Source: Lepidurus packardi | Lineage: Eukaryota; Arthropoda; Branchiopoda; Notostraca; Triopsidae | Assembly (NCBI GenBank): GCA_023053545.1 | Contig: JAKZAN010000004.1 | Coordinates: forward strand, 4,030,001-4,094,000 | Reading direction: 5' to 3' | Length of the DNA: 64,000 nucleotides | Shown: positions 74-42,924 of the stretch, piece after piece | Layout: each line of letters starts with the position of its first letter | Position numbering within the stretch: position 1 is the first letter of the stretch | Made by a program: the position numbers and the translations under genes | The notes under the pieces: generated by a model | Databases searched by the model: none | What the model was told of the DNA's origin: nothing | The model's input: only the letters and a program-made list of their open reading frames with translations

Positions 74-3000
74 GGGGCAATAAGGAGCATGGCGATACTG
101 GACCATGAGACGAATCCTGAAGTGGAGTTCCGAGTCCAAGTATGGGATAATGGGCACCCTCGCTTAACTTCGCCGAACTTGGCGCTCGTGCGAATCCGCA
201 TTACAGACGTGAACGACTTGCCTCCTGCCTTTACGGAAGCTATCTATAACGCTACTGTGCTGCTCCCCACCTACCCTGGAGTGGCTGTGCTCACTTTATC
301 AGCCTCTGACCCGGATACGGATGCCCATAGCCCGTTGACTTACGGCCTAACTCCTGGGAAAGGAGCCGAGAGCCAATTTGCTGTGAATAAAAACACAGGA
401 GTGCTCACCATGAGCCAGGCGGAAGGCTTAGCTCCGTATTACCACTTGGAAGTGAGCGTTTCCGACGGGCTATACACGGCCGTGGCTTATGTCAATGTCT
501 ACGTCGAACAAGTGGAAGCCTCCGGACTGGCTTTTGCCAAGGATTTTTATGTGGGAGCCGTGGCGGAGAATTCTACCCGGGAAAGTACGATTGCCGTGTT
601 GGATGTGCTCGGTACCGTTCTCAACGAACATGTGACGTTCCGAGTACTCAACCCAGAAGGGCTCTTCAAAGTGGGTCTCACGTCGGGCGTGGTCCAGACG
701 ACGGGAGCCGTTTTCGATCGCGAATCGCGGGACAAGTACACAGTCATTATAGAGGTGAGTTACCCCCACGATTTTTTAGGGTTCCAGAAACGATGAAAGG
801 CGGACTGGAGTTCGACTTGAAACGCTAGATAAAATGTCTTGAAGAGATAACCCATATGCTTTAAGGATGTCTGGTGTTATTTTATTTACCTTTTTGCTTT
901 CGCTTTTTATTGAAACGGGATTAATTAGGTGAATTTTACCTGACAGCTTTACAGAGTTTCAGTAAACTAAATCTTCTTTAGCGTAACGATGACATAATTG
1001 TTTTTTGACAAGACAGAATGAGAGGAATTACTGATGTTTAAATTTTTGGAAATTCAAAAATCAAATTAGTTCAGAAGGAATTTAATTTTAGTGAAATTTA
1101 ATTTTAATGAAAATTAAATAGAAATTTAAAACCAAGTATTCAAAGATGCTGTATTCTGTTAAATTCTAAAAATAAAAAAAAATGGAATTTAACATTTTAT
1201 AAAAAGTCAGGTTTCTGGTAAGGTGTCGATGTTGTGTAAGAAAAAGTCCAGATATTTTATCTTCGTCTTGCCAACATTTAACTGATAATAAGAAGAAATA
1301 GCTGCAAACTTTCTTACACGGCTTGGTATGACGTGGCTTAATTTTGCCAACGCGAAGGCGTTAAAGTCCGCTATTGCCTCAAGAAAACTTGTTTGGAAGG
1401 TTTTTGTGCGGGAAATTAGGAACTTTGAGTGGTCCCTGCCAGGGAACGTGAACGAAAGATAAACAGCTTGCGGAAAAGTTGAAGAACAACTAATTTGCTA
1501 GATTTGTGCTAGATCTTGTTGGTACGTAATGCACTGATTCGATAGTCTTTAGTTGTAACAAATTTCAAACCTTATTACCCTTCCTGAGCGACTGGCTTGT
1601 CCTTCGTTTCAGCTCAGAATTTCACGTCTTTGACGTCTACATGCGTTCATTAAAGTTTGTCTAGAGTGCAGCAAGATGTGACCGTGTATCGCAATTAAAG
1701 CTTATTGTAAACCCCATTGCAGGCTCGCAGTGAACGCGGAGACGGGGAGAAACCCAGGATTGCTCACACGCGTTTGGATGTAACGGTCACTGACGTCAAT
1801 GACAATCGGCCTGTGTTTATTAACTTGCCTTATTATGCTGTCGTCTCCTTGGAAGCCAAACGTGGGGACGTTGTCACCAAGGTAAAAGTTATATCTATGT
1901 CACTTAACAAAAAAAAGGCTTATAAATCGTGAAGTATTTTTTCTCTTAAACTTTCTTTTCCCCATTTCTTTTTCCTTTTTTTCCCTTTCTTTTTTCCTCT
2001 TGCTGTTTTTTCTAAAGAAAAAAAATATATGTTGAGTTGTCTATGGAAAGCTGGTAGAAATAAGACAGAGATGGGCAAAAGGACGTAGAGAAGCTAGACT
2101 CATAACGTTCTATTAGGTGCACGCGGTGGACCGTGATGTGGGCGAGAACGGTGATGTGCGCTATGAGTTATTGAAAGGCCCGGGAGAGTTGTTCCGGGTG
2201 GGACGCAAAACTGGCGAAATCTCCTTGAAGCAGACGCTGGAAGGCCATAATACGGAATACGAGCTGCTCGTGGCGGCTTACGACGGAGGTAAAAACGAGT
2301 AAAAAAATGAGCATAAAAGTGAGAGAAAATGAAAAAAGAAAATAAAGCCGAATAATGCTTCTTTGGTGGGGGTAGTTTTTCGTTTTGAAGGTTTGTTACT
2401 TTCACGGGAAAAGAGACTTAAAGCAATTAAAATCACGCCTTTTGGGGGACGTGTGTAGCTTTTCAAAGGATTTTTGATTTCTATTCCTAATTTTTTTCTC
2501 TTCCAAAATAGGAGTTCCGCCTTGGTCCGCCGAAGCTGCGGTCCGTATTAAAGTGATTGACCGTTCTATGCCTGTCTTTGAAAAGGCGTTTTACGCGGCG
2601 ACCGTGTCTGAAAAAGCGCCGACTTACTCGCCCGTATTAACTGTGCAAGCTTCCAGCCCTATGGATCGGAAACTCATTTATAGTATCGTTACGGGTAACG
2701 ATATGGAAGAGTTCGCATTGGACTTCAACACAGGTAAAAGCCGGGAATTACATTTCAGAAATACTTTATTTTTTTTAATCTGGCGGGATATATATACTTT
2801 TTTTTTCGCATCGTTTTGACATTTCATAACATGATGTTAATTTTCCTGGACAGCCATATAATGGGTGATACTCTAACAGTTATTTTTATTTCCATTTTTT
2901 CTGCTCCATGATTTTGGGTCGGGCAGCTCCAGACAGTAATCCTGGGCCTTGTGAGTACCGCTTCTCTCTCGATTTAACATTGTTGTCCTGTATATCCTTC

Positions 3001-6000
3001 TTTTTTGCATGGCTTTGGTGTGCTTCCTGTTGTGTCAAAAGCAGCTTGGGGAAAATGCGTTGGGGAGTTGGCTTAATTGCGTTACCCGGCATGGCTTTCG
3101 CTTGTTGGGGGAGAGGAGACTGTCTTCAGCTCCAATTTAGAAGTTATTATTAGGCTTTGAATCATGGATTATTCTTTTTTTTTCTGTACAGTAGTGTCGA
3201 GCTTGGATGTTTGGTTTCCGTTTTCTAAAAACGTGTTTCAGATCCAGAAATAATAAGAATTTTATTCCTTTTCTTTCCTTGTTTTTGATGGTGATGTTCT
3301 TGTGGAAAGGTCTCATCTCCGTGGTGGATTCCCTGGATTTCGAAAGCAAATCCCAGTACGAATTGACCTTGAGAGCTACGGATTCGGTGTCAGGTGTTTA
3401 CACACAAGTACCAGTTATGATCGATGTTGAAGACGCTAATGACTGCGCGCCAGTCTTCCCTCAGCATGAATACTATGTCAACATCTCGGAAGCCACACCC
3501 CCGGGCACTCTCTTGATGACCGTCCAGGCCTCTGATGCGGATTCTGGACTCAACAGCCAGATCCAGTACAGTTTGTCGTCTCCGACATCATCCGCAGATG
3601 ATTACTTTTATATAACAGCCCAAGAAGGCTCGTTAATGCTGAGCCGAAGCTTGGACCAGGAAACCAACACTAGGCATCACCTTCTCGTGGTGGCGACCGA
3701 CGCTGGGAACCCTTCCTTGTCCAGTACGGCCCATATTTGGGTCACAGGTAAATGACCAGCCCAGTTAGGCTTCATTTTATAAGAATGATGACGGGTAAAA
3801 AAATATAGCAAGGTTTTTTTTCTGTTTTTGTTTTTTAGTGACGGACGTCAATGATAACCCTCCAAGATTTGACTATCCCACTTATGCTTGTGTGCTCTCC
3901 GAAGACGCCAAGCGGGGGCAGTTTGTTACCATGGTAACGGCCCGGGATCCCGACTTGGTAGATGAAACCAAACTAATCTATTCCATCGCCGGCGGCAATG
4001 AGCAGCAAATGTTTTACATAAATCCGAAAACAGGTAAAAATCGTCTTCGATTTACATCTCTAAGATGTTTGTAATCTTTGGTCATCTAGGAGAACGTAAC
4101 TGCATGTTTTTGTTGATGTTAATAACAGTCGATATTACCGATAATAAAGAAAATATAATTCTATTGTAATATCAAGATGACAAAGTCTAACAAATTATAT
4201 AAAAGTAGTATAGGAAAAATAAGAAAATAGGATGTAATAGAAACCTAAAAATTTTGTTAAATGTGTTCAATTTTTAATCATAGGAATCATTACCTTGGCT
4301 ACGTTGCATCGATTCGGAGAGCAACCGTCATACTCTATGAACATTAGCGTTTCAGACGGTGTGTTCACGAATTATGCGCGACTCCAGGTAGATTTGCTGT
4401 CAACCAATCGCCATAGTCCGCAGTTTCCCAAACCTGTAGTGGAGGCTGAAGTTATGGAAAACCGTCCGTCAGGGACGATTGTGACGCGAGTGACAGCCCA
4501 GGATTTGGACCGAGGCGAATTTGGTCAACTGACATATTCCATTAGTTCTGATTGGGCCTTGGAAAGCTTCCGAATTGACGAATCTACGGGTAAAAAAAAA
4601 GAAATTACAAGATTTTTTTACAAAAATCTTTGACGCTAACTGTATTTCTTTTCTTTTGCTATCTTTCTTTTCAGGGGAAATCCTCACGAGAAAGAGTTTG
4701 GACTGCGAGAAAAGGAGTATCTACGAAATTCCAGTGATGGCCGTGGACGTGGGTGGCAAGACAGGGCATGTTTTGGTCCGTATTCGGATCTTGGATGAAA
4801 ATGATAACGCGCCACAATTTGGACTCCAGGAATATAAAGCGAATATCCATAGTAACCATACTCCGGGAACGGTTGTGGTGAAAACACAAGCCTGGGACTC
4901 TGATTTGAGCGCTGGAAGCAGTTTGGTTTACTCCATGTATGAAAGTAATGGCACTCGTGCTACTGACGTCTTTGACATCAATCCCGTCACTGGGGAAATC
5001 TTTCTAGTCCAGAACGCCTCGGCTTTGGGTAATAAGTTCTTCCTTTTAATTTCGTCCATTTGTTTGTTCTCTAGTGAATTTCCTTGAACTAAGAAGTGTT
5101 TTAGGAAAGTCCATTTCTTGAAGTTAGGTAGTCGGGTCGGATTCTATCAAGTTCCAGATTTTGATTAACTAACGCTGCAGCAGATTGTGTCCAATTTCCT
5201 TGAAGTTAGACTGTCATTTTCGTTGCTTTTTGTCATTTTCGAGACAAGTTGTTTACTTATCTCTTTCCTAAAATTAGCAAGAGAGGAAAGATTTTTAGAG
5301 CCAAGTTACAACGTATTAGTTCTGGTAGTGAGGGATTGTATTTGTTTTCCTCGGGGCAAATTGTTTTAATTTGAATGTTCATTTTATTTTTGAATAGTGA
5401 ATGAAGTGTTCCAGTTCTTCGTTCGAGCAGAGGATCTAGGAGTACCGCCACTGCGAACGGAGGTCCCAGTGGACGTTTTGATTATGGGGCCGTTGGACAA
5501 ACCTCCCGTCTTTGAGCGCCCTAGTTCCAAGTACTTTCTGGCCGAAAACGCACCCTTGGGCACGATTGTGACTCGTGTCCGTGCTCAATGCCCTGACGCT
5601 TTAACGTATAGCATCGTTGCTCCGTCAACTGCTTCCGCGTCATCTAAGCAGGCTGCCGTCTTTGGAGTGGATGAGCAAGGGAGCGTTTTCGTGAATGACC
5701 TGGTCGACCGAGAGACGCAAGACACGTACACGATCACCATCCAAGCAGCCACAGATGCTTCCCCAGCGTTGGTAGCCACCACCCAAGTGGTGGTCCAAAT
5801 CCTCGACGAGAATGATAACGCGCCTGAATTCGAAAGCCTTGTTTATCAGGCGGTGGTGGCCGAAAATGCTGACAAGAAGTCGAGCATTATTCGTGGTAAG
5901 TAATGATTTCCTTTATCTATTTTTCTTTTTATTTGTGAACTAGAAAAAAATCTCATTTTTTTCTTTTCTCTATAGTGGCAGCACAAGATAAGGATCATGG

Positions 6001-9000
6001 CAGTCACGGGGAAGTGCGATACACTCTGGGACCTGAAGCCGGAGCTTTGGCGGATGTTTTCCGCTTAGATCCTTTTACGGGATGGCTGACAACTTTAGTG
6101 ACATTGGATCGCGAGGAGCAAGATCGTTATAGTATCCCAGTGTTGGCGTTAGATAATGGTAGTCCTGTCAAACTCTCGAGCTCTGCGACCGTTGTGATCC
6201 AAGTCAAGGATTACAACGACAACCCGCCTCAGTTTTCCCAAAGCCATTATATCGCAGCAGGTAGAAAAATTACTTCGCCAGTTCTTTTCTTTTGCTTTTT
6301 TCTTTATTTTTAAAAAAAAGTGGGAGGGGGAATATGAAGTGGGGATGGCAGGGAGAAAAATAGATGTATGCTAATGAACTATATTTTCTTTTCTTTTCTC
6401 GTGTGAAATAGTACAAGAAGAAACGTTGCCGGGAACTGTTGTGGTGCAGTTGAGTACGACGGATCGAGATAGTTTGGTAACGTCAGCTTTGGAATATTAT
6501 ATTACGGAAGGGGACGCCCGGGGCCAATTTGGCATCCGTTCCACTGGCGAAATTTATGTTGCTAAAGCATTGGATCGTGAAACGTTAGCGACGTATAATA
6601 TCCAAGTTTTGGCCACCGATGGTGCGTTTCTAGCCACCACTTCTGTCACTATTGATGTTTTGGATAATAACGGTAAGTGCTCTTGCGCTTTTTTTTTATT
6701 TTTACCGATTAACTGTCACGATGTGTTCAAATTTGTATTCCAGATAACCCGCCGTACTGCATGCAGTACCGCTATGAGGAAGCCGTCTCAGAAGCCGCGC
6801 TCCCGGGTACATTTGTCTTGAGCGTTCTGGCTACGGACGCAGATGAAGGGCCCAATGCTATGCTCCGTTACTACTTAACCGGTACTGGCGCCGAATACTT
6901 TAGCCTCAACAACGAGACCGGCAAGTTATATACATCCAAAACGCTGGACAGGGAAGACACCTCCCATTTCGAGTTAACTGCCCATGTTCAAGACCGAGAT
7001 ACAAGCCAGGAGGGCGAATGTAGCTCGCGAGTGCTTCTTACCATTACGGACGTAAATGATAACCCTCCCCTTTTCACCCAAGGCTTTTACCAAGTCTCGG
7101 TGCCCGAGGACGCCGAACTTCGGACGCTGGTGACCAAGATCCATGCGGCTGACGTGGATTTGGGGTTAAACCGTAAAGTCAAGTATTCACTCGCAGCCAA
7201 AAGTCCGTCTGACGAGCTTCACTTTGCCATTCACCCCGAATCTGGCATTGTGACCGTCTCCCACGCCCTGGACCGTGAAACCATTCCTGCCTACAATGTT
7301 ACCGTCACGGCGCAAGATTTGGGTCACCCGTCTTTATCTGCCACCGCCTCGTTGTTCATAACCGTCACGGATGTGAACGACAACCCGCCCGAGTTCTCGC
7401 ATAAATATTACTTTGCGGCCATTTCGGAAAACGCCGTCTTGGGATCGGATGTAACGCGAGTGTACGCGACTTCCTTAGATGTGGGTCTCAACGCGGAAAT
7501 TACCTACTCGATCCTGGGCGGCAACGAGCACCGTAAATTCACCATCCATCCCATCACAGGAGTCATCAGCGTGGCCGAAGCGTTGGACTTCGAGCGCCAA
7601 TCCGACTTTTTCCTCACGATCCAAGCTCTCGATAAAGGCATGCCGCCGCTCTCGAATCATGCTACACTGAATATTTCCGTCTTAGATGCCAATGATAACG
7701 CGCCCATCTTCTCCCAAGCTTCCTACAGCACTGTCGTGCTCGAAAACGCAATCCTGAACGAACCCATCCTAAAGGTCAACGCCGCAGACTTGGATTCCGG
7801 AGAAAACGCCCAAATTGTCTACGCCATAATCCAAGGCGATCGGCATGGTCAATTTCAGATCGATCCCCACGCGGGATTGTTATCCGTGGCAAGTCAATTA
7901 GATCGGGAAATGATTGCCCACTATTCCCTTGCAATTGAAGCCAAAGATCTGGGAAATCCCCCCTTGTCCTCCACCGTCAACGTCAACGTCGAAGTTCTGG
8001 ACGTGAACGATAACCCGCCCACATTTTCGGAAAGGAACTACTCAACAGTCGCCCAGGAAGACAAACCATTAGGTTTTGCCATTTTGAAGTTCCAAGTGTC
8101 GGACATTGACAGTACCGGCAATGCCGGTCCGTACACCTTCGACCTCCGCGCAGGCAACGATGGAAACGCCTTCCGAGTGGATCAGGACGGTACCTTGCGC
8201 ACCGCGACGAAATTTAACCACAAAATTCGGGACAAATACCTACTCCAAGTCCGCGTCTTTGACAATGGCTCGCCCCCGCTCTACTCGGACACTTTCGTCA
8301 CTGTTCAGATCATTGAAGAGTCCCGTTTCCCGCCTGTCATTACGCCCCTCGAAATTACCATCAATTCCTTCTTAGACGAGTTCCCGGGCGGCTTAATTGG
8401 CAAACTACGCGTAACCGATCAAGATCCTTACGATACCTTGATGTATTCTTTAAGTACTCCGTCGTGGGCGACGAAACATCCCGCGTCGGGGACGCTGCTG
8501 GCGCCGTTCTCGGCCGTCACGGCTGCCGTCCAATTTGAAATCGATGTAGACGACGGTACCTTGATCGCCAAACCGGGTTTGGATGTCGGTTCTTACAGCG
8601 TAAACGTCTCCGTCAGCGATGGGAAGTTCACGAGTTTCGCGACCGTCAAAGTCGTCGTTTCTCTCGTGAACCAGGAAGCCATCCAGAACGGAGTGATCAT
8701 CACGCTCAGAGAACTTACCGCCGAGGATTTTGTGTTGAGTTACAAGAAAAGTTTCTTGCGGGCCATTCGCAACATCCTGAACGTTCGCACCAAAGACGTC
8801 CTTATTATCAGTCTCCAGCCCGCCGCGCAGTCGCGTCCCGCTCGCCAGGCTCAGGGCGATAAACCCTGGAAAAACAGTAACAAAGATCCGAACGGCGAAG
8901 GCGTTATGGCCGCCGCTGCGACCAGCCGACCCAATTTGGACGTTCTTTTCGCCGTACAAAAGTCCTTAGCCGGGTTTCATCCTCCGCAAATGGTACGCAA

Positions 9001-12000
9001 GCACATTCTGGACAATTTACGCGAGCTCGAATCCACGCTAGGCAACCGGGTGGTAGGGATCGTCCCAAGTACTTGTCTGCCCAACTATTGCTCCTCCCAA
9101 GGCAAGTGCTACGATAAAGTGGTTTTGGACGATGCTGTCATGATCACGGTTACGACAGACATTACCAGTTTTGTAGCCCCGAGACACGCCTATCAACCGA
9201 CTTGCCAGTGTAAAGACGGTTTTACCGGCCAGCACTGTGACCAGTTAAGTACCCCTTGCGCTCAGCAACCGGCCCCTTGTCCCCCGCCTCAGGTTTGCCA
9301 ATTGGAACCCAATACCAAGAAAGGCTACGTTTGCACCTGCCCTGCGGGGGTGTTTCCTTGCACGAGTCCCAGCACGAACGAAAAGCACCCTTTAACGTGC
9401 CCTGAAGGCACGAGCACTGGATCCGGTACCGGTTGCTATGACCCCAAGCACCCGTGGTCGTTTATGGGCAAATCCTATGCACAGTACACCCTCACGGCGC
9501 CCATTGACAAGCATTTGGTGGTTTCTTTGAAACTAAGGAGTATCCAACCTACAGGGAATTTAATGTTTGCCGCCGGACGCGTCGATTACAGCGTCTTGGA
9601 AGTGGTGAATGGACAGGTGCAATATCGATTTGACTGCGGATCCGGAGAAGGTTTGGTGCGAGTAACAGGCGTCTCGGTTTCTGACGGTAGGTGGCATGAA
9701 ATCCGGGTTGAACGGCATGGGAACACGGCCGAGGTCGTCGTCGATGGACGGGACCGAGCTCAAGGGGCAGCTCCCGGAGTCAACGACGTTTTGAACCTCG
9801 AGTCGAGCGACGTGTACTTTGGCGCTGAGGTCAGGCAGTTACCTGGAGCGCCTGGTTACGACGACATCCGGATGGGCTTTATGGGCTGTTTAGATGATAT
9901 CCGACTGGATCATGTAGCGTTACCGCATCATTTGAGCTCTAGTAGCGGCCCTTTTACAAACCATTTGTTACCCGCTGCGTCTGCGCCGGCAATCCTAAGG
10001 CGCTTCACCAACGTGGAATTTCATTGTCGCGTGCCGCTAGACCGACCAGGCTTGTGTGGCTCGCAGCCGTGTCTGAATGGCGGCACTTGCCACGAGATGC
10101 CAGGCGGAACGTCTTATCAATGCCAATGTCCGCCGCGGTTTATTGGTCAACGATGCGAAATGGACACGGACCCGTGTGCCTCTTCTCCGTGCTTATATAA
10201 CGGCAAGTGTTTCAACCTGCAGAACGACTTCCGGTGCGAATGTCCGCCGCGTTTAAGCGGTAAACGGTGCGAGTATGGGCGATTTTGTAACCCAAATCCT
10301 TGCAGAAACGGAGGTATTTGCGAAGAAGGCACCAGTGGGCCGATTTGCAAGTGTCGAGGCTTCACGGGAGAACTTTGTAACGTAGACGTGAACGAATGTG
10401 AGCCTAATCCGTGCCATAATGGCGGGACGTGTATCAACATGGTCGGCAGTTTCCAATGTCTGTGTGGCGGCAATGCCACGGGAGCTTATTGCACGGACCC
10501 TTTGGTGACGGCGAATATTACCTCGAGCCAAAGTGGTGTTACGTTATTAGAAATCATTTGTATGATCGTAGCGATACTGGCCATTCTTTTCGTGGTCATA
10601 GGCTGGGTCCTGTACCGCAGATATCGTCATAAGCGCAAAAGGCATCGTCGAGCGAATAATCTGGCGCCAGATGGCACTAACGGCAAGGAAATGGTTCCTT
10701 TAAACTCTACTCGAGGGGCGGATCTAGCGGGGTTTAACAGAACTTCCAAAATGAGCAACCTGGAAGCCAGTCAGGTAAGAATTCTTCTTCATTTTTACTT
10801 CCATTCGTTATGTTTGGATAGTACATGTTTTTGTGTTACTTCAACGCGTTTTCTAAACGTAAAAGTACTGCGACACAAAACGATACTGTAGCAGTTGAAC
10901 TGAAACTCAATTTGCATGCAATTCTTTTTTAAAAAATTCGCTAATGACAGTTTTCACATGCGCGGCTTTGTTTTTCTCGCTAAGGTGAAAAGCTTACTTG
11001 GATTTTTCAAATTAAGTAACGCAAAAACGAAAAAAAGTGAAGCTGTTTTGCTACCGTTATTGGTATTAATTTCATTTCTGTCAAGCAATTTTTAAAAAGG
11101 TCATAATATTTTTGCTGCAGTATATCTACGTTCACCATGCCGTAGAAAGCTAAAAAAAATAGCCCTCAAATTGTATGATGTCGCATTACTTTTTAAGTAG
11201 TTGAGCATGCTATAGCAGCGTACAATTACGCCTGCGTTTTAAAAAATGTATAGTTGTTTACTTTTATATCTCCAATTTTCATCATGCCAGGCTTATTTTC
11301 TCAGTGTAATAATTTTCCTTTATGTTTTGCCTGATGCGATTTTAAAGATCCCACCTGCACCCATGCTCCCGCCCCGTCCTGCCTCCTACACGCCCAGCAC
11401 CGAACCCACCTACATCCCATTAAACAACCTGGACACGATTCGAAGCTACGGTTCTGCCGCCGATGATTTGGAAACTTCGCCCATGCTCAGTCACCACAAT
11501 TCACCCGAATATCAGCCCAATTTGCATAGATGCAACCCCCACACCGTGCCGTCGCATCAATACCACCATCGAGAAGCTCTGTCCGAAACAGACAGTTTGC
11601 ACAAGCCAGCCTGGGCTGATATGGGCAATAACCTCAAAGGAGCTTACTACGATACGTCCAAATTAGGTATACTGAGACGTGTTCAGTGTAGAAGAAGTGG
11701 GGTTTTGTTTTATTCCTAAAAATCTCGTTTTCATTGCTTATACCATAGATTTTAAGGGTACTGAACCCCCTGCTTGCAATCTCAAAGTCATGTTAAACGA
11801 CTTGAAGAAAAACAAAGAAACCATGGGACCTAGTATGAAAAACACGTCTTCTCTAGAAGAGTGTGGACGTAAGTTTACTATTATAAAATTTTACTAGTTT
11901 TACTTTTGCTGTCGCAAATCGATTAACCACTAGAGAGAAGGGAAGCTGTAGGGTGATTGGGTAGTTAATTTGTTACCTTTCCGTTAACCCATGGGTTTTT

Positions 12001-35434: not shown

Positions 35435-38400
35435 ATGAGTACAAGCGAAAAGCTTGGAGTGCGAAAATTTGCAGATCTCTCCCTGGTCTATAGAGCACTT
35501 TATGACTCCCAAGCTAAGGACGATGCTGAAGATCTCGGAACACCCTTGCAAAATAAGAGCGGTATTGCACTTGATGATTTAAACGTAGAACATGAAGTTC
35601 AGACCAAAGGAGATTTATTGCACTATATCAACGCTAGTGTGATCGGGAAGCATGAGACATTTCTCGGTCCATTTGGATCTCGTAGAGGTAAACATATTAA
35701 CCATTATCCAGCTCAAAAATGTGCCACTAATATAGTGTAACGGGTATATTGTTGTTCCCCACATTGTAGTCGTATACTGTGATTATATTGCATCAGGGAA
35801 GCCTTTGTCTTTTCTAGAGGATTATATTCGTGTTCAAGTCCTCCCCTTGTACGGGAACACTCATACAACTACTACCATAACCTCCTTGCAAACTACGCTT
35901 TTCAGGTAGTTTGTTTTGGTACATATTCAACAGTTTTCTCTTTATTTTAAAGTTCTAACATTGTCGATCTCAGGCACGAAGCGCGTGACATTATTCGCAA
36001 CGCCGTGAATGCCTCGGAATACGATGCTGTCATATTTTGTGGCAATGGCTGTACCGCCGCGGTCCATAAGCTCATCAATGGCCTAAAACTTTCTGAACCA
36101 CCCGTTGTTTTCGTAGGACCTTATGAACATCATTCCAATTTGCTTCCATGGCGAGAATTGTCGGGAAAAGTACCGCATTATTGCCTTATTTGATTGGGCA
36201 CAGTTTAAATAACTTTCCTTAAAGGTTATCCGTATAAAGGAAGCAGAATCAGGTTTAATTGACCTCGAAGACCTTGAAAAACATTTAAGTGAAGAAGGAA
36301 AGTTCAAACGCCAAATGATTGGCTGCTTTGCTGCAGCTTCAAATATAACGGGTGTTTTGGCTCAGGATGAAGCTGTTACCGTATTACTGCACAAATATAA
36401 TGCTCTAGCGTTCTGGGATTATGCTACTGCAGGTAATTTTTAATTCTACCGTGATAACTTATTCATGTGCAAAAGTTTTGTTTTTACTTTTCAGCGCCTT
36501 ATACAAGATTGGATATGAATCCCGAGAAAGCTTCTTGTCCGTCGGGTACTGCCCATAAAGACGCTATGTATTTTTCAATGCATAAGTTTATTGGAGGCGT
36601 CCAAACCCCTGGTTGAAAGAACAAAATAGCCTTTTCAATTGTGAAGTAATTTTGAAATTATACGAATTTCAGGTATTCTGGTTGTTAAAAAGAAGGTCAT
36701 CCGTAACCACGTACCTAATGGTGGGGGAGGTGGGACTGTTTTCTTTGTCAGTCGTGATAATCATCGATATTTACAAGTGCGATATCAAATTTGCAGGGAT
36801 ATATTGTATAGATTTATCTAGGATGTTGAATTAAGGGAAGAAGGCGGAACTCCAGCTATTGTTGAGTCTATCAGGGCAGGGATGGTAATGCAATTAAAGG
36901 AACAAGTCACAGCTCAACGAATTATGGCCAAAGAAGAACAATTATCTCAGTAATTTTAAACTTGTAGTTGCTGGGTGATTTCATTATTGTGCGTTTTTCA
37001 CAGGTTGGCTTTCATGAGATGGAAAGATATCCCAGAATTAATTATACTGGGCAGTAGTTCTGTTCCTAAGCTGCCAGTATTTTCGTTTTTGGTTCAGCAC
37101 GCCTCGGGCTTATATTTGCACTATAATTATGTGTGTGCTTTGCTCAATGACATTTTTGGGATTCAAGCGCGCGGTGGCTGCGCTTGTGCTGGCCCTTATG
37201 CACAAGACTTATTGGGTATCGACGAAAACCTGGCTCACGAATACGAGTCAGTTTTGTTAGAAGACAAGTATGGCTTTTAGTGTTATTTCCCTTATATTAC
37301 AGATTACATTTAAAACAGATTGTTTGTCTTATTTCCCCCGTTACAGTCGTCTGGATCGTGTTCATTTGAGAAGGAAAGGGGAATACTCCAGCAATGAGGT
37401 TCTCAGGCCGGGATTTACTCGATTAAATTTGTCCTATTTCGCGACTGACGAAGAAATCGAATTCGTCTTATCCGCCGTTTCTTTAGTAGCTCGCCATGGA
37501 TGGTTATTGTTGCCTTACTACCAAGTAAATCTCGAAACAGGTGAATGGCACCACACCAGCCAATTGGTAATGAATCAATTGATTTCGCCTAGAATACAAA
37601 AGTCATAACTATACTTCTGCTTATGTTTTCGGTTGAATTGTTAATGTTTTCTATGTGTTTACAGACTTTCAAGAACCGTGTCTGGTTGGGATCAATTGAT
37701 TATAGCCAAGGCTATATGAGAATCCGACAACCTGCCAAACTTAAACCGTCTCCAGCTCCGGACTTCACGGATTGTTTGCAAGAAGCACAGGACTTGTTTG
37801 AGAACCTTCCTAATGTAAGTTTAAGACGATTGTGCTTGATTTAGTTTATACTATCATGATTTAATTAGGAGATCAGCCTAAAGTCATTACCGGATCAGAG
37901 CCTTATGTTCTCTGAACATGCATTCCGGCTACGTTGGTTCGTTTTACCTAGCGAAGCTCTGGATTACATCAAGTCGCCTCATATTGCTTTACAGCAAATT
38001 AAAAAGGCACCTTTTGTACCCAAACGGTACCCAGATAGCCCAGCTACCATTGATTCTCTCCTTTACTGCTCAATGACTGCATTCGGACATAACCCAATCG
38101 TTGAACCTAGTGTCCGACTTGACCAAGCCAATAATTCGAACTCCAAAAGCTACTCCATTAGGGAACTTTGTGAAAAAGCGTCCGAGTCTTCAGCACAAAT
38201 CGTCGACGTTGGTCCCACGCCCATAAGCGAAATCACTTCGATCTCTTCACACATTTCTCCACAATCTCAACATAGCGAATCAAATAACGTGGTTTGGAAT
38301 GAAATATTTGTCAATATTTTCGACGAAAGTCTGTCGGATGGAGAAACCGAAACTGCGAAACGGTGTATTAGATCGTTAGGCGGTTCAGTTCAATGGGCCA

Positions 38401-39394
38401 CGCCTCCAAAAGTGATTCTGAAAGCAGCACTTGAAGCCTGGATCCGTTTTCCTATGGTGGAAAATGGGGATCGAGTTTTAGTGTGCTTATCGGGAGGGAA
38501 AGACTCCCTATCCCTGCTCCATGTGCTACACTATTTACAGCATGGTTCAGCCCAAAGAGGCGTGGCTTTTAGCCTAGGTGCCGTAACTGTGGACCCCGGG
38601 TCAGCCTCCTATGATCCTCGCCCACTGATCCCCTATATTGAGTCCTTAGGAATTCCGTATTTCTATGAGCGTCAAGGTAACATAGTAAAGAAACTACAAG
38701 GAAGGAATTATGGTTACTTCTGCTTCTTTTGTAGGGATATTGGGACAAGCTTTGGAGAGCGAAAGCAGTGTGAGCTCGATTTGCAGTTTTTGCAGTCGTT
38801 TAAAGCGAGGGAGGATTTACGCTGCAGCTAGAAGAGAAAATTACAACGTTATTGCGCTGGGACAGCACTTAGATGATTTAGCGGAAAGTTTTCTTATGTC
38901 TGCCTTCCACAATGGGCGTTTACGAACAATGAAAGCCTGTTATTCAAACCAGTAAGCAATAACTGAGGGTTTTACATTTTGTTCCCCTTTATTGTTATTT
39001 TTTAATTTTATTTTTTAAAGGAAAGAAGATTTGAAGGTTATTCGGCCACTTGTTTATGTCAGGGAAAAAGATTTAAGGGAGTTTGCAACTTCAGCAGGTT
39101 TCCCTGTTATTTCTGAGAATTGTCCTGCCTGTTTCGAAGCTCCCAAGGTAAATGTAGACACCGCTTTCGGTATTGTTTAGCTAATTTTTGTGATTTTAGG
39201 AGCGTTTTCGTATTAAGCAGTTATTGGCTCATCAGGAACTGCTTTACCCACGCCTCTTTTTTAATCTAAAGGCAACTATGCTACCCTTAATGCAAATTAG
39301 TGAGCCGGGAGTGGAGAGAAAACTTTACGGCAAAGAATCTAATTTGAAGAAACTCGGGAAAAATAGAGGCAGAAAGGATTCCGGAGAAGAGTAG
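35435..39394 (+). CDS. Cysteine desulfurase-like (class V aminotransferase) fused to TtcA-type ATP-pyrophosphatase
   Basis: Exons: 35435-35687, 35770-35905, 35974-36169, 36225-36432, 36495-36611, 36673-36776, 36822-36949, 37014-37267, 37347-37566, 37675-37814, 37869-38676, 38735-38951, 39021-39147, 39200-39394. The N-terminal half is a PLP fold: YCDYIASG, LPLYGNTHT, FCGNGCTAA, FWDYAT (cofactor Asp), MHKFIGG (Schiff-base Lys) and RGGCACAGPY, a probable persulfide-carrying cysteine loop. After a serine-rich linker the second half has the PP-loop LSGGKDSLSLLH, the CSFCSRLKRG pair, ALGQHLDDLAES, and ENCPACFEAP near the C-terminus. These are the motifs of the TtcA/CTU1 group that activates tRNA with ATP and inserts sulfur. 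One chain therefore has both sulfur mobilisation and acceptor activation. The exact substrate is unknown. All key residues are present, so it looks functional. Confidence 0.9.
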
Positions 39395-39700
39395 ACGTTT
39401 GACGGGTTTAATTTTTTTTTATCTTCAGCGCATTCAGTAGGCTAATAAAAGAACGTTTGTTACTCATTTACACTGTCGGTTTTTGAAGGCCTCGGGGGGG
39501 AGGGGGGGGGGAGGATTTTAAGTTAAAAAATCACCGGAGAAGTTATATAGCCTCGGTCCACGCCTTTTGTAGTGACGCTACGCTAGTCTACTTCCGGAAT
39601 CTACTAGACATTTTAACCTTTTAGGGACATCTAAGTATACGCGAAGACGACCAACCGTATCAAGCAATTTTACAAGTGATATGTCATCCATCCTGCCAGT
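39200..39700. repeat. Left copy of duplicated gene junction
   Basis: 39214-39394 (true last exon of the desulfurase-TtcA gene) and 39545-39690 correspond to 41083-41230 and 41385-41525. On the minus strand 39545-39690 encodes a broken FAM151 C-terminus (DDISLVKLLDTVGR, RVYLDVPK, CLVDS) that then hits a stop. The offset between copies is about 1869 bp. Confidence 0.85.
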
Positions 39701-40424: not shown

Positions 40425-40625
40425 CTATCCCCGATATTCGAGCTCGTAATGCCGAAGCATCACAATTTCGAATATGGGAATCTGAACCTCGCCGGGAAGG
40501 TACAGGGAAAGGGAGCCATTTAATATTTCGTTTTTTCGACGAAATAAAGTGCCTCGACCGGGAATCGAACCGAGGACCTTCCGTCCCCAGTCGTGCGTGT
40601 TATCCACGCCGTCATGGACTTATGT
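40425..40625 (-). mobile_element. tRNA-derived SINE-like repeat
   Basis: The minus strand reads like a tRNA gene head: an A-box-like GGCGTGGATAACACGC, a loop CGACTGGGGAC and the B-box GGTTCGATTCC, but with no matching 5' acceptor strand. It runs into a non-tRNA body downstream (to about 40425 or beyond). This is the usual structure of a tRNA-derived SINE. No TSD was found, so the ends are approximate. Confidence 0.55.
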
Positions 40626-40939: not shown

Positions 40940-41082
40940 TAGTGCTGAGGTAACCTTTCCACCCCTCCCCGTTAATTTTTTTTTGGTGGAGGGCGCGCGC
41001 ACCGGTCTTTTGTACTATCGCAAAGCACATTTGTTCCGAATTTGTTTCTTAAGCTGGTTGTAAAGTTTATTCTGTTATTAAA

Positions 41083-41346
41083 CAGTTATTGGCTCAGCAG
41101 GAGCTATTTCACCCATGACTCTTCTTTGACTTAAAGGCAACATATGCGTTGTCATTTGTGCAAATTAGTGTGCTTAAATTTTATGGCAGGGTCGAATATG
41201 AAGAAAGTCGGTAGAAAAGATTCCGATACACGACAGCTGTTGGACACAGTAATTTATTTTGTATCTTCAATGGTGAATAAATGTGCACTGTTCGTTCTTG
41301 AAGGCAGTTTTTGTTTAGGGGGTGCTGGGTTGCTGCACTGTATTAT
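41083..41346 (+). pseudogene. Decayed copy of last exon of the desulfurase-TtcA gene
   Basis: The first 150 bp align with 39214-39390 (QLLAxQEL, DLKAT, KDS-type end) but contain stops and indels. It is the right-hand part of the junction duplication and directly precedes the true FAM151 stop codon. Confidence 0.8.
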
Positions 41347-42924
41347 TTAAAAGAAAGCCATCATGGCAGCGAGGAAGAGAGCCACAGGCCATGCCTTTAT
41401 TACTGACGCTGCGCTAGTGCCCTCAGAATCTACTAGACATGTTAATCCTTTGGGGACATCCAAATATACGCGATCACGACCGACCGTATCAAGCAATTTT
41501 ACAAGTGATATGTCATCCACCGGATCGTAAATTGAAGACCAGATTGTCAAGGTGCTGTCAGGTACCTTAGAAAATCGAAAGTAATAATTTTGTTATGAAA
41601 AGAAAGGAAACAAGTTTAAGTACTTTGTCCAGAAGCCATTTAAGTGTTTTATGGGATTCAGGGGAGGCTGCGATCCCAGCGCGAACTGGGAATGTAATTT
41701 TTTGACTAACATTAGCAGCCATTAGTGCTGCCTGCATTGCTTCCACATGTGCTTGGGAATACGAGCCTTCGCTTATGATAATGTAGGGGTTTGTGGGTTC
41801 GGGACCAAATCTAATGTGTAATCGTACAATTGAAAATGTTAGATAAAGTGGTGAATATCTTAATACTATGAAAGTTTACCGTGTGGTCCAGCCTAAGGAA
41901 AGTACGGCACTAGGAAAATACTTTTGGCAAAGGTGCAAAAAAGTGCTCGCATCAATTGGTTTGCTGGTATCATCTACGGGGCCCTGAATTATGTCTGCAT
42001 TGAGCCAAATTGGCACCTTGATCTATATCAAGGAAAATAAACATAAGACTTTTCTTAATTGTTGAAAACTTTTAAAATTGTAAAAACTAAAAATTTGCAA
42101 CGGGGGCGATTTAACGTTTTCGTTCCGCAATAAAGTGGGTTTATTTCACTATATTATGGGTCATGCAAACAAATCGGCTGACCTTGAAACTACTCTTCAA
42201 GAGCGGTAGTGACAAACGAGGCAATATGTCATAAAAGTTTTAGTGTACTAATTTAGATACGCACTAGTTTTTTAGGTACTTACTAGCTTTTCGCGTGCTT
42301 TGAGCATTAGCAGCGCAGGTTCTACTGCGTCAAGCATCTTGAAATCAAGCTTAATGCCTTTAGGTCTCTTAGTGAAAGCGAAAACCATGTCTAAGAACTC
42401 TTCTAGTGAGAGATCCGAACTCTTAGCGGGAGGATGGGCGGCAATAAGAAGCGGTTTGCCGGATTCTTCTTCGCCATTCAGTGTACCAAACAAGACATCC
42501 GTTTCGAGCATATCAATGTCACCTGTATGTTTTGTTGAAAAAAAAAAAAAACAAAGAAACAGATGTTAGAAACTTGGGATTGGCGTTTATAGACTCATTG
42601 TGTACACGATAGTTTAAACCCTACCGTTCAAAGCTTTTTGCAGCATGGCCCGACTAACAACGGAATGCGCCCAACGGATTTTTGTTTTATCATTTTTGGC
42701 AGCTGGGAATATCTCGGAAATATCAGGAATCGATGTGGAGCCTGCAACAGTAAAAACAGTCAGCAAAACCCTTGTTATCACTGCAATTAATCACTTTCAT
42801 TTGTTACGAAAATTGTATTACTGCGTTTAAGGCGAATTGGAGCAATATTCGAAACTTTTGGTATCGCGTACCCAAATCCTATTAGACCCACCAAAAGAAG
42901 CCAGCTAAAATTGCACAGTTGCAT
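41347..42924 (-). CDS. FAM151: FAM151 / menorin-family secreted or membrane-anchored protein
   Basis: Exon 1 (42924 down) encodes a signal peptide (MQLCNFSWLLLVGLIGFGYA). Later exons carry the family core: IRWAHSVVSRAMLQKALNG, then DIDMLETDVLFG, IAAHPPAKSSDLSLEEFLD, KGIKLDFK, VPIWLNADI, LSLGWTT and TIWSSIYDPVDD (last exon 41347-41554). This is the menorin domain (DUF2181), with a phosphodiesterase-like fold; worm MNR-1 works as a skin-side cue for dendrite branching. The tail has small residues (EGTSAAS) and then a terminal hydrophobic stretch (AWPVALFLAAMMAFF) with nothing after it, which resembles a GPI-anchor signal (inference). It is convergent with the desulfurase-TtcA gene. A broken copy of its last exon lies at 39545-39690. 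Confidence 0.88.

Follow-up and report, generated by a model that had tools for sequence, protein, structure and literature searches.

A SufS-like desulfurase domain joined to a TtcA-type domain in one animal protein of Lepidurus packardi: a candidate self-contained tRNA thiolation enzyme

RNA-thiolating enzymes with a PP-loop can be divided by their cysteine motifs, group I having two CXXC motifs together with the PP-loop and group II, to which TtuA and Ncs6 belong, having five CXXC(H) motifs (PMC3980101, available part). In TtcA three cysteines of the two CXXC motifs are the ligands of a [4Fe-4S] cluster that is essential for thiolation, and the reaction mechanism is called unclear in the available text of the review that describes it (PMC5372739). 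Here we describe a gene of the notostracan Lepidurus packardi which encodes a cysteine-desulfurase-like, pyridoxal 5'-phosphate (PLP)-type domain and a TtcA-like domain in a single polypeptide. It lies on the plus strand of the window, by which we mean the whole stretch of 64,000 nucleotides that was analyzed (contig JAKZAN010000004.1, positions 4,030,001 to 4,094,000, of the 108.6 Mb assembly GCA_023053545.1).

In outline this arrangement resembles DNA phosphorothioation, where the cysteine desulfurase DndA feeds the PP-loop iron-sulfur (Fe-S) enzyme DndC (PMC10853773, available part). The Dnd proteins are however separate and act on DNA, and PADLOC detected only weak DndA/SspA similarity in the two homologues tested. 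Another comparable system is CTU1/NCS6 with NFS1-URM1, which likewise uses a PP-loop enzyme for eukaryotic RNA thiolation, the role that the fused protein presumably has. In contrast to the latter, CTU1/NCS6 belongs to group II with five CXXC(H) motifs, consists of separate proteins and is also present in this assembly.

Two enzyme-type halves in one polypeptide

A sequence-only reading of the window had placed one polypeptide of 14 exons at 35435..39394. Our gene model, for which splice sites were read by hand and checked against homologues, agrees with these coordinates exactly from the ATG to the end of the stop codon; it has an open frame of 1,040 amino acids with no internal stop, contains GT-AG introns of 45–98 bases throughout, and includes all motifs pointed out in that reading (MHKFIGG, RGGCACAGPY, SGGKDS, CSFC and CPAC). 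The acceptor of exon 2 was set at 35770 from an alignment with 15 homologues, as the acceptor at 35797 loses the nine residues VVYCDYIAS. The Pfam scoring, the homologue search and the SufS alignment were done with an uncorrected model of 1,031 amino acids that lacks these residues.

The N-terminal half matches Aminotran_5 (PF00266) with E=5.8e-37 and 128 bits, the cut-off being 21.5; this score and that of the C-terminal half (below) rule out a random resemblance. Like SufS (TIGR01979), it exhibits a class V PLP domain, the PLP lysine, the EHH motif and the position of the loop cysteine, and Lys295 and Cys442 align with those SufS residues which we take to be catalytic. It differs from SufS in having the CxC loop RGGCACAGPY where SufS has one of the HHCA type, and in carrying an extension that ends close to an LRWF motif. 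For the structural model of a sponge homologue, SufS-type enzymes were the top matches at about 20–25% identity, and desulfurase complexes with SufE- or SufU-type partners were also among the matches. The match lists were dominated by the PLP half, and the TtcA half was therefore placed from sequence alone. Taken together, the domain and motif evidence supports the proposed cysteine-desulfurase-type nature of this half and points to a SufS-like enzyme.

The C-terminal half matches ATP_bind_3 (PF01171) with E=2.1e-13, and its best NCBIfam model is TtcA with 184.5 bits, followed by TilS with 57.3 and TtuA with 45.2. In an alignment with two bacterial TtcA proteins the SGGKDS PP-loop, the CSxCSRLxRG and GxHxDD blocks and the second CXXC are in register, as are the cysteine positions of the predicted Fe-S cluster. 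The three bacterial TtcA proteins that best match the TtcA half of the sponge homologue share 32–35% identity with it. The whole window protein contains just two CXX[CH] motifs and not the five of group II, and identity with CTU1/NCS6 was rejected because there are only two CXXC. The motif pattern thus supports a TtcA-type, group I half, in line with the ATP-pyrophosphatase suggested before, which differs from TtcA in being fused behind a desulfurase.

Distribution in animals and bacterial relatives of the PLP half

The homologue search scored 7,984 candidates of about 567–1,804 amino acids, 7,679 of which passed an E-value of 1e-3; the figures given here for fused homologues cover the best 120 of these. 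All 120 carry both Pfam domains, so that the annotation fusion of adjacent genes considered in the sequence-only reading was not seen. The PLP lysine, the cysteine loop, SGGKDS, NCPxC and GQHxDD were likewise found in all 120, CxxCSR and a narrower PLP-lysine pattern in 119 each, and an LRWF-type motif in 96; the TtcA part has exactly two CXXC in every one. Two homologous transcripts, P0071 (from a Trinity assembly) and P0103 (assembled and labelled complete), are single open reading frames (ORFs) across both domains, and not transcripts ending between them, the other outcome that the earlier reading had considered. An annotation artefact was rejected, as far as sequence allows, because one exon spans the join and because the homologues and the two single transcripts carry both domains.

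Among the arthropods there are Daphnia magna (55% identity), mayflies, cockroaches, thrips, decapods, spiders and ticks. The other animals comprise a tardigrade, molluscs, annelids, echinoderms, hemichordates, amphioxus, a tunicate, corals, Trichoplax and homoscleromorph sponges. As the fusion is found in sponges, a placozoan and corals through to amphioxus and a tunicate, the protein is, judged by this distribution, an ancient animal protein not confined to L. packardi. Among the names of these 120 homologues, some of which are shortened, vertebrates, nematodes, flatworms and holometabolous insects are missing, which suggests losses in those groups. In the assembly of L. packardi itself one intron-bearing copy was found among the best-scored candidates. 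The animal-wide occurrence of the fusion and the lack of a tie between the PLP half and TtcA in bacteria (see below) are absent from the sequence-only reading. A diatom TtcA-like protein (P0245) carries PF01171 alone.

Database names vary from TtcA to 'putative Cytoplasmic tRNA 2-thiolation protein 1' and 'Cysteine desulfurase 1, chloroplastic', and our literature searches, which covered titles and abstract openings and left subscription journals mostly uncovered, found no account of a PLP-TtcA fusion. The protein is thus already in databases under guessed names and apparently undescribed in the searchable literature.

Searches with the fused alignment against genome contigs (71 stretches) and viral contigs (66 stretches) gave no confirmed relative of the whole fusion, none of 236 plasmid records covered 80% of it, and of 27 phage records the ten best were 23–27% identical; these negatives reach as far as the pattern and BLAST searches do and are no proof of absence. 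A combined-type alignment scan of genome contigs returned at least 590 stretches, of which 586 were confirmed and the best 80 kept. They are 41–47% identical, and their matches stop at residue 534–658 of the 901-residue query, before the PP-loop. The best relative among the plasmid records is 42% identical over 64% of P0104. In the alignment, the extension up to LRWF is common to the fused proteins and this bacterial family. An RGGCxCAGPY-type loop was found in 84 and an LRWF-type motif in 79 of 87 relatives (L009-L095, the best 80 plus seven from plasmids), some of the misses being near-variants, e.g. RSGC. We know of no function for this bacterial class V family. Unlike the fused protein, its members stand alone or together with other domains, with no TtcA part among those examined.

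The flanks of the 87 loci extended up to 6–8 kb, and many were ended by contig edges. The four largest neighbour clusters (86, 74, 42 and 33 loci) were set aside, as they consist, judged by eye, largely of ORFs in other frames of the PLP gene. The remaining ones were an ABC-type ATPase (12 loci), an MBL-fold protein (6), Lrp/AsnC (6), an alpha/beta hydrolase-like protein (5), a cluster without a name (5) and TauE/SafE (3), so that the PLP gene has no constant partner. Two of the seven plasmid loci, from marine roseobacters (L011 and L012, about 800–10700), have the PLP gene flanked by ABC-transporter genes, an FAD enzyme/oxidoreductase, an ATC hydrolase and an M20 hydrolase, the ATC hydrolase/M20 setting having been checked with Pfam in one of the two; this is possibly a thiazoline or cysteine-use cluster. 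In two further plasmid loci an MBL-fold gene follows the PLP gene, with TauE or ABC genes, and the other three show no such setting, only a PIG-L or MBL-fold gene at some distance.

Long proteins with a bacterial-type PLP domain (P0134-P0239) carry cNMP-binding, HxlR, sulfotransferase, HAD or PIG-L domains, fusions for which no function is known to us. Neither PF01171 nor an SGGxDS motif was present in the best 120 of 2,259 such proteins, and of 17 long proteins that contain a TtcA region of bacterial type none had PF00266. An operon-like pairing of PLP and TtcA in bacteria was thus sought in loci, long proteins and genomes and not found. As this PLP family shows no link to TtcA, the pairing looks like an invention of the animal lineage. 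A quickly built tree comprised 79 rows, including 25 of the 120 fused homologues, the window protein, every second bacterial row and the plasmid ones; in it the 26 fused rows lie on one side of a branch with an SH-aLRT (approximate likelihood ratio test) support of 100, and the window protein pairs with Daphnia (99). As the fused rows form one group, their PLP half looks like a single acquisition from the bacterial-type family.

A partial gene model of the plant Turnera subulata (P0121, 1,611 amino acids) has about three tandem PLP domains and no listed TtcA domain. In the L. packardi assembly the small contigs C239, C60, C51 and C95 contain uninterrupted, bacterial-looking frames, namely one related to the PLP half but standing alone, others resembling desulfurases, and a TtcA-like end. 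The frame of C239 is 38% identical, and among plasmids it is matched best by a Pontibacillus gene, with 64% over 60% of the query length; we read this contig as bacterial because its upstream DNA resembles, by eye, a bacterial phosphomutase gene. The four contigs suggest bacterial DNA within the animal assembly.

A proposed thiolation enzyme and its alternatives

The fusion is thus real and shared across animals, and a function in thiolation is a reasonable inference. With moderate confidence, we favour a bifunctional enzyme whose SufS-like desulfurase half (residues ~60–645) feeds its group I TtcA-type half (~770–1010), most likely yielding 2-thiocytidine (s2C) at tRNA position 32. The enzyme is probably cytosolic, with no targeting signal evident by eye. 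L-cysteine would bind to PLP on Lys295 and its sulfur would be taken as a persulfide on Cys442. The linker would tether the TtcA half so that the first half can feed the second, the TtcA half accepting the persulfide; it may thereby take the place of SufE or SufU, or Cys440 may relay the sulfur. The PP-loop with ATP would adenylate or activate O2 of a 2-oxo pyrimidine, after which sulfur would replace the oxygen, assisted by an Fe-S cluster on Cys878, Cys881 and Cys968. We infer catalysis, the cluster, direct persulfide transfer and the target RNA and base from the two families; s2C32 would be the best-supported product.

The expectation that this animal already has NFS1 and CTU1 is supported by CTU1-like exons (C4, L099) and NFS1-like exons with a SGSACTSASLEPS loop (C5, L008), both recognized by eye from their motifs. 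Urm1 matches also exceed the cut-off of Pfam, and one of these lies on the large contig C2. With these sequences alongside, the fused protein would be a second route, as had been suggested, which is reasonable. More tentatively, and with rather less confidence than doubt, we propose that a second, self-contained route of tRNA thiolation, independent of NFS1-URM1-CTU1, exists in many invertebrates. In it one protein would make 2-thiocytidine from the sulfur of cysteine, and it would go back to two bacterial-type enzymes joined before or early in animal evolution; its loss in the usual laboratory animals would account for its being unstudied. If this holds, a tRNA nucleoside ascribed by reviews to bacteria and archaea alone is also made in animals, and the enzyme making it brings its own sulfur source. 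The protein would then offer a simple system in which the passage of a persulfide between desulfurase and Fe-S thiolase can be followed within one chain, and numerous animal proteins whose present names are guesses would be explained.

Several points weigh against the s2C32 proposal. SufS-type desulfurases normally pass their persulfide to a partner, e.g. SufE or SufU. Both halves stay below the cut-offs of their closest models, the window protein reaching 122.4 bits against 475.1 for TIGR01979 and 184.5 against 272 for the TtcA model NF007972 (496.7 for a bacterial TtcA control); for this reason the halves are termed SufS-like and TtcA-like and not filed as SufS and TtcA. When 7,698 six-frame ORFs of the 87 bacterial loci were searched with the TtcA half by phmmer, none of the loci was matched at E 1e-3, the corresponding search recovering the PLP half in all 87, and a TtcA-like match was absent in six and present in five of 11 chosen genomes, some of these being metagenome-assembled and maybe incomplete. 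In addition, the ATC hydrolase, MBL-fold, TauE and Lrp neighbours suggest a cysteine-degrading ancestor. C32 was found in tRNA-Arg genes and likewise in those for Lys, Thr and Phe, in 15 of 16 distinct rows (from the 18 of 30 fetched loci that are on large contigs), and is too common to discriminate; what the tRNA genes show is that a substrate is there. Finally, the available parts of two reviews list s2C for bacteria and archaea only (PMC7694415, PMC5372739), so that eukaryotic s2C would be new.

The alternative that survives best, though we regard it as unlikely, is an RNA thiolase that is likewise self-contained and built in the same way but has another target, i.e. a different tRNA position or base (e.g. 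uridine), mitochondrial tRNA or ribosomal RNA. The low identity of the sponge TtcA half to bacterial TtcA and the below-cut-off score of the window protein indicate divergence, the closest solved relatives of this half are TtuA and a U34 thiolase, and eukaryotic s2C is unlisted in what is available of the same reviews (PMC7694415, PMC5372739). The TtcA model nevertheless scores clearly above TtuA and TilS, and above NcsA in three homologues, and the CXXC pattern is that of group I and not that of group II with TtuA and Ncs6.

Still less probable is an enzyme that draws sulfur from the PLP half to thiolate a small molecule, be it a nucleotide, a cofactor or a thiol metabolite. PP-loop enzymes outside RNA modification exist, and some bacterial PLP relatives occur in apparent cysteine-metabolism settings and not in RNA modification, as in the two roseobacter plasmid loci with ATC and M20 hydrolases and the two with MBL-fold and TauE or ABC genes; retention of the TtcA-type cysteine pattern and of the CSRLxRG and GxHxDD blocks speaks against this reading. 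We give very little weight to halves that act separately, the PLP half degrading cysteine or supplying sulfide in general and the fusion merely co-localizing or stabilizing them: the bacterial PLP family does occur without TtcA and fused to unrelated domains, and the linker is long and variable (the short sponge linker being partly disordered in the model), but the fusion is kept in all 120 homologues, from a search of proteins of at least 567 amino acids with split forms outside its range. That two neighbouring genes were wrongly joined can be dismissed for practical purposes, as exon 11, with its 808 bases, keeps one frame from the extension at the C-terminus of the PLP half via the linker into SGGKDS, which places the join inside one exon, and as the homologous single transcripts P0071 and P0103 exist.

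Gene layout and minor observations

Exons and motifs of the gene are listed in Table 1; downstream of exon 14 an AATAAA is found at 39444.

Table 1. Exons and motifs of the fusion gene (positions in the window; aa, residues of the 1,040-residue product)
Feature	Position	Strand	Residues	Remarks
Exon 1	35435..35687	+	aa 1-84	start codon 35435
Exon 2	35770..35905	+	aa 85-129	contains VVYCDYIASG; acceptor from homologues
Exon 3	35974..36169	+	aa 130-195	contains EHHSNLLPW, aligned to SufS EHH region
Exon 4	36225..36432	+	aa 196-264	
Exon 5	36495..36611	+	aa 265-303	contains PLP lysine
MHKFIGG	36578..36598	+	from aa 293	codon of predicted PLP Lys295 at 36584-36586
Exon 6	36673..36776	+	aa 304-338	
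Exon 7	36822..36949	+	aa 339-380	
Exon 8	37004..37267	+	aa 381-468	contains cysteine loop
RGGCACAGPY	37170..37199	+	from aa 437	Cys442 (37185-37187) aligns with SufS loop Cys; Cys440 an additional conserved Cys
Exon 9	37347..37566	+	aa 469-542	
Exon 10	37665..37814	+	aa 543-592	extension common to bacterial family
Exon 11	37869..38676	+	aa 593-861	RLRWF motif, variable linker, PP-loop; joins both halves
SGGKDS PP-loop	38490..38507	+	aa 800-805	
Exon 12	38735..38951	+	aa 862-933	
CSFC	38782..38793	+	aa 878-881	first TtcA-type CXXC
Exon 13	39021..39147	+	aa 934-976	
CPAC	39121..39132	+	aa 968-971	second TtcA-type CXXC
Exon 14	39200..39394	+	aa 977-1040	plus stop

On the minus strand, the stretch 40550-40620 shows a tRNA-like B-box by eye; since ARAGORN found no tRNA in the 64-kb window, it is perhaps a tRNA-derived repeat. 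Two decayed tandem copies lie about 1.83–1.87 kb from their originals. The first repeats a portion of exon 14 (41076-41170, 79% over 95 bases) and contains a stop, and the second repeats the DNA directly 3' of the gene (41380-41519, 84% over 142 bases), a piece that the genome search located at just these two places.
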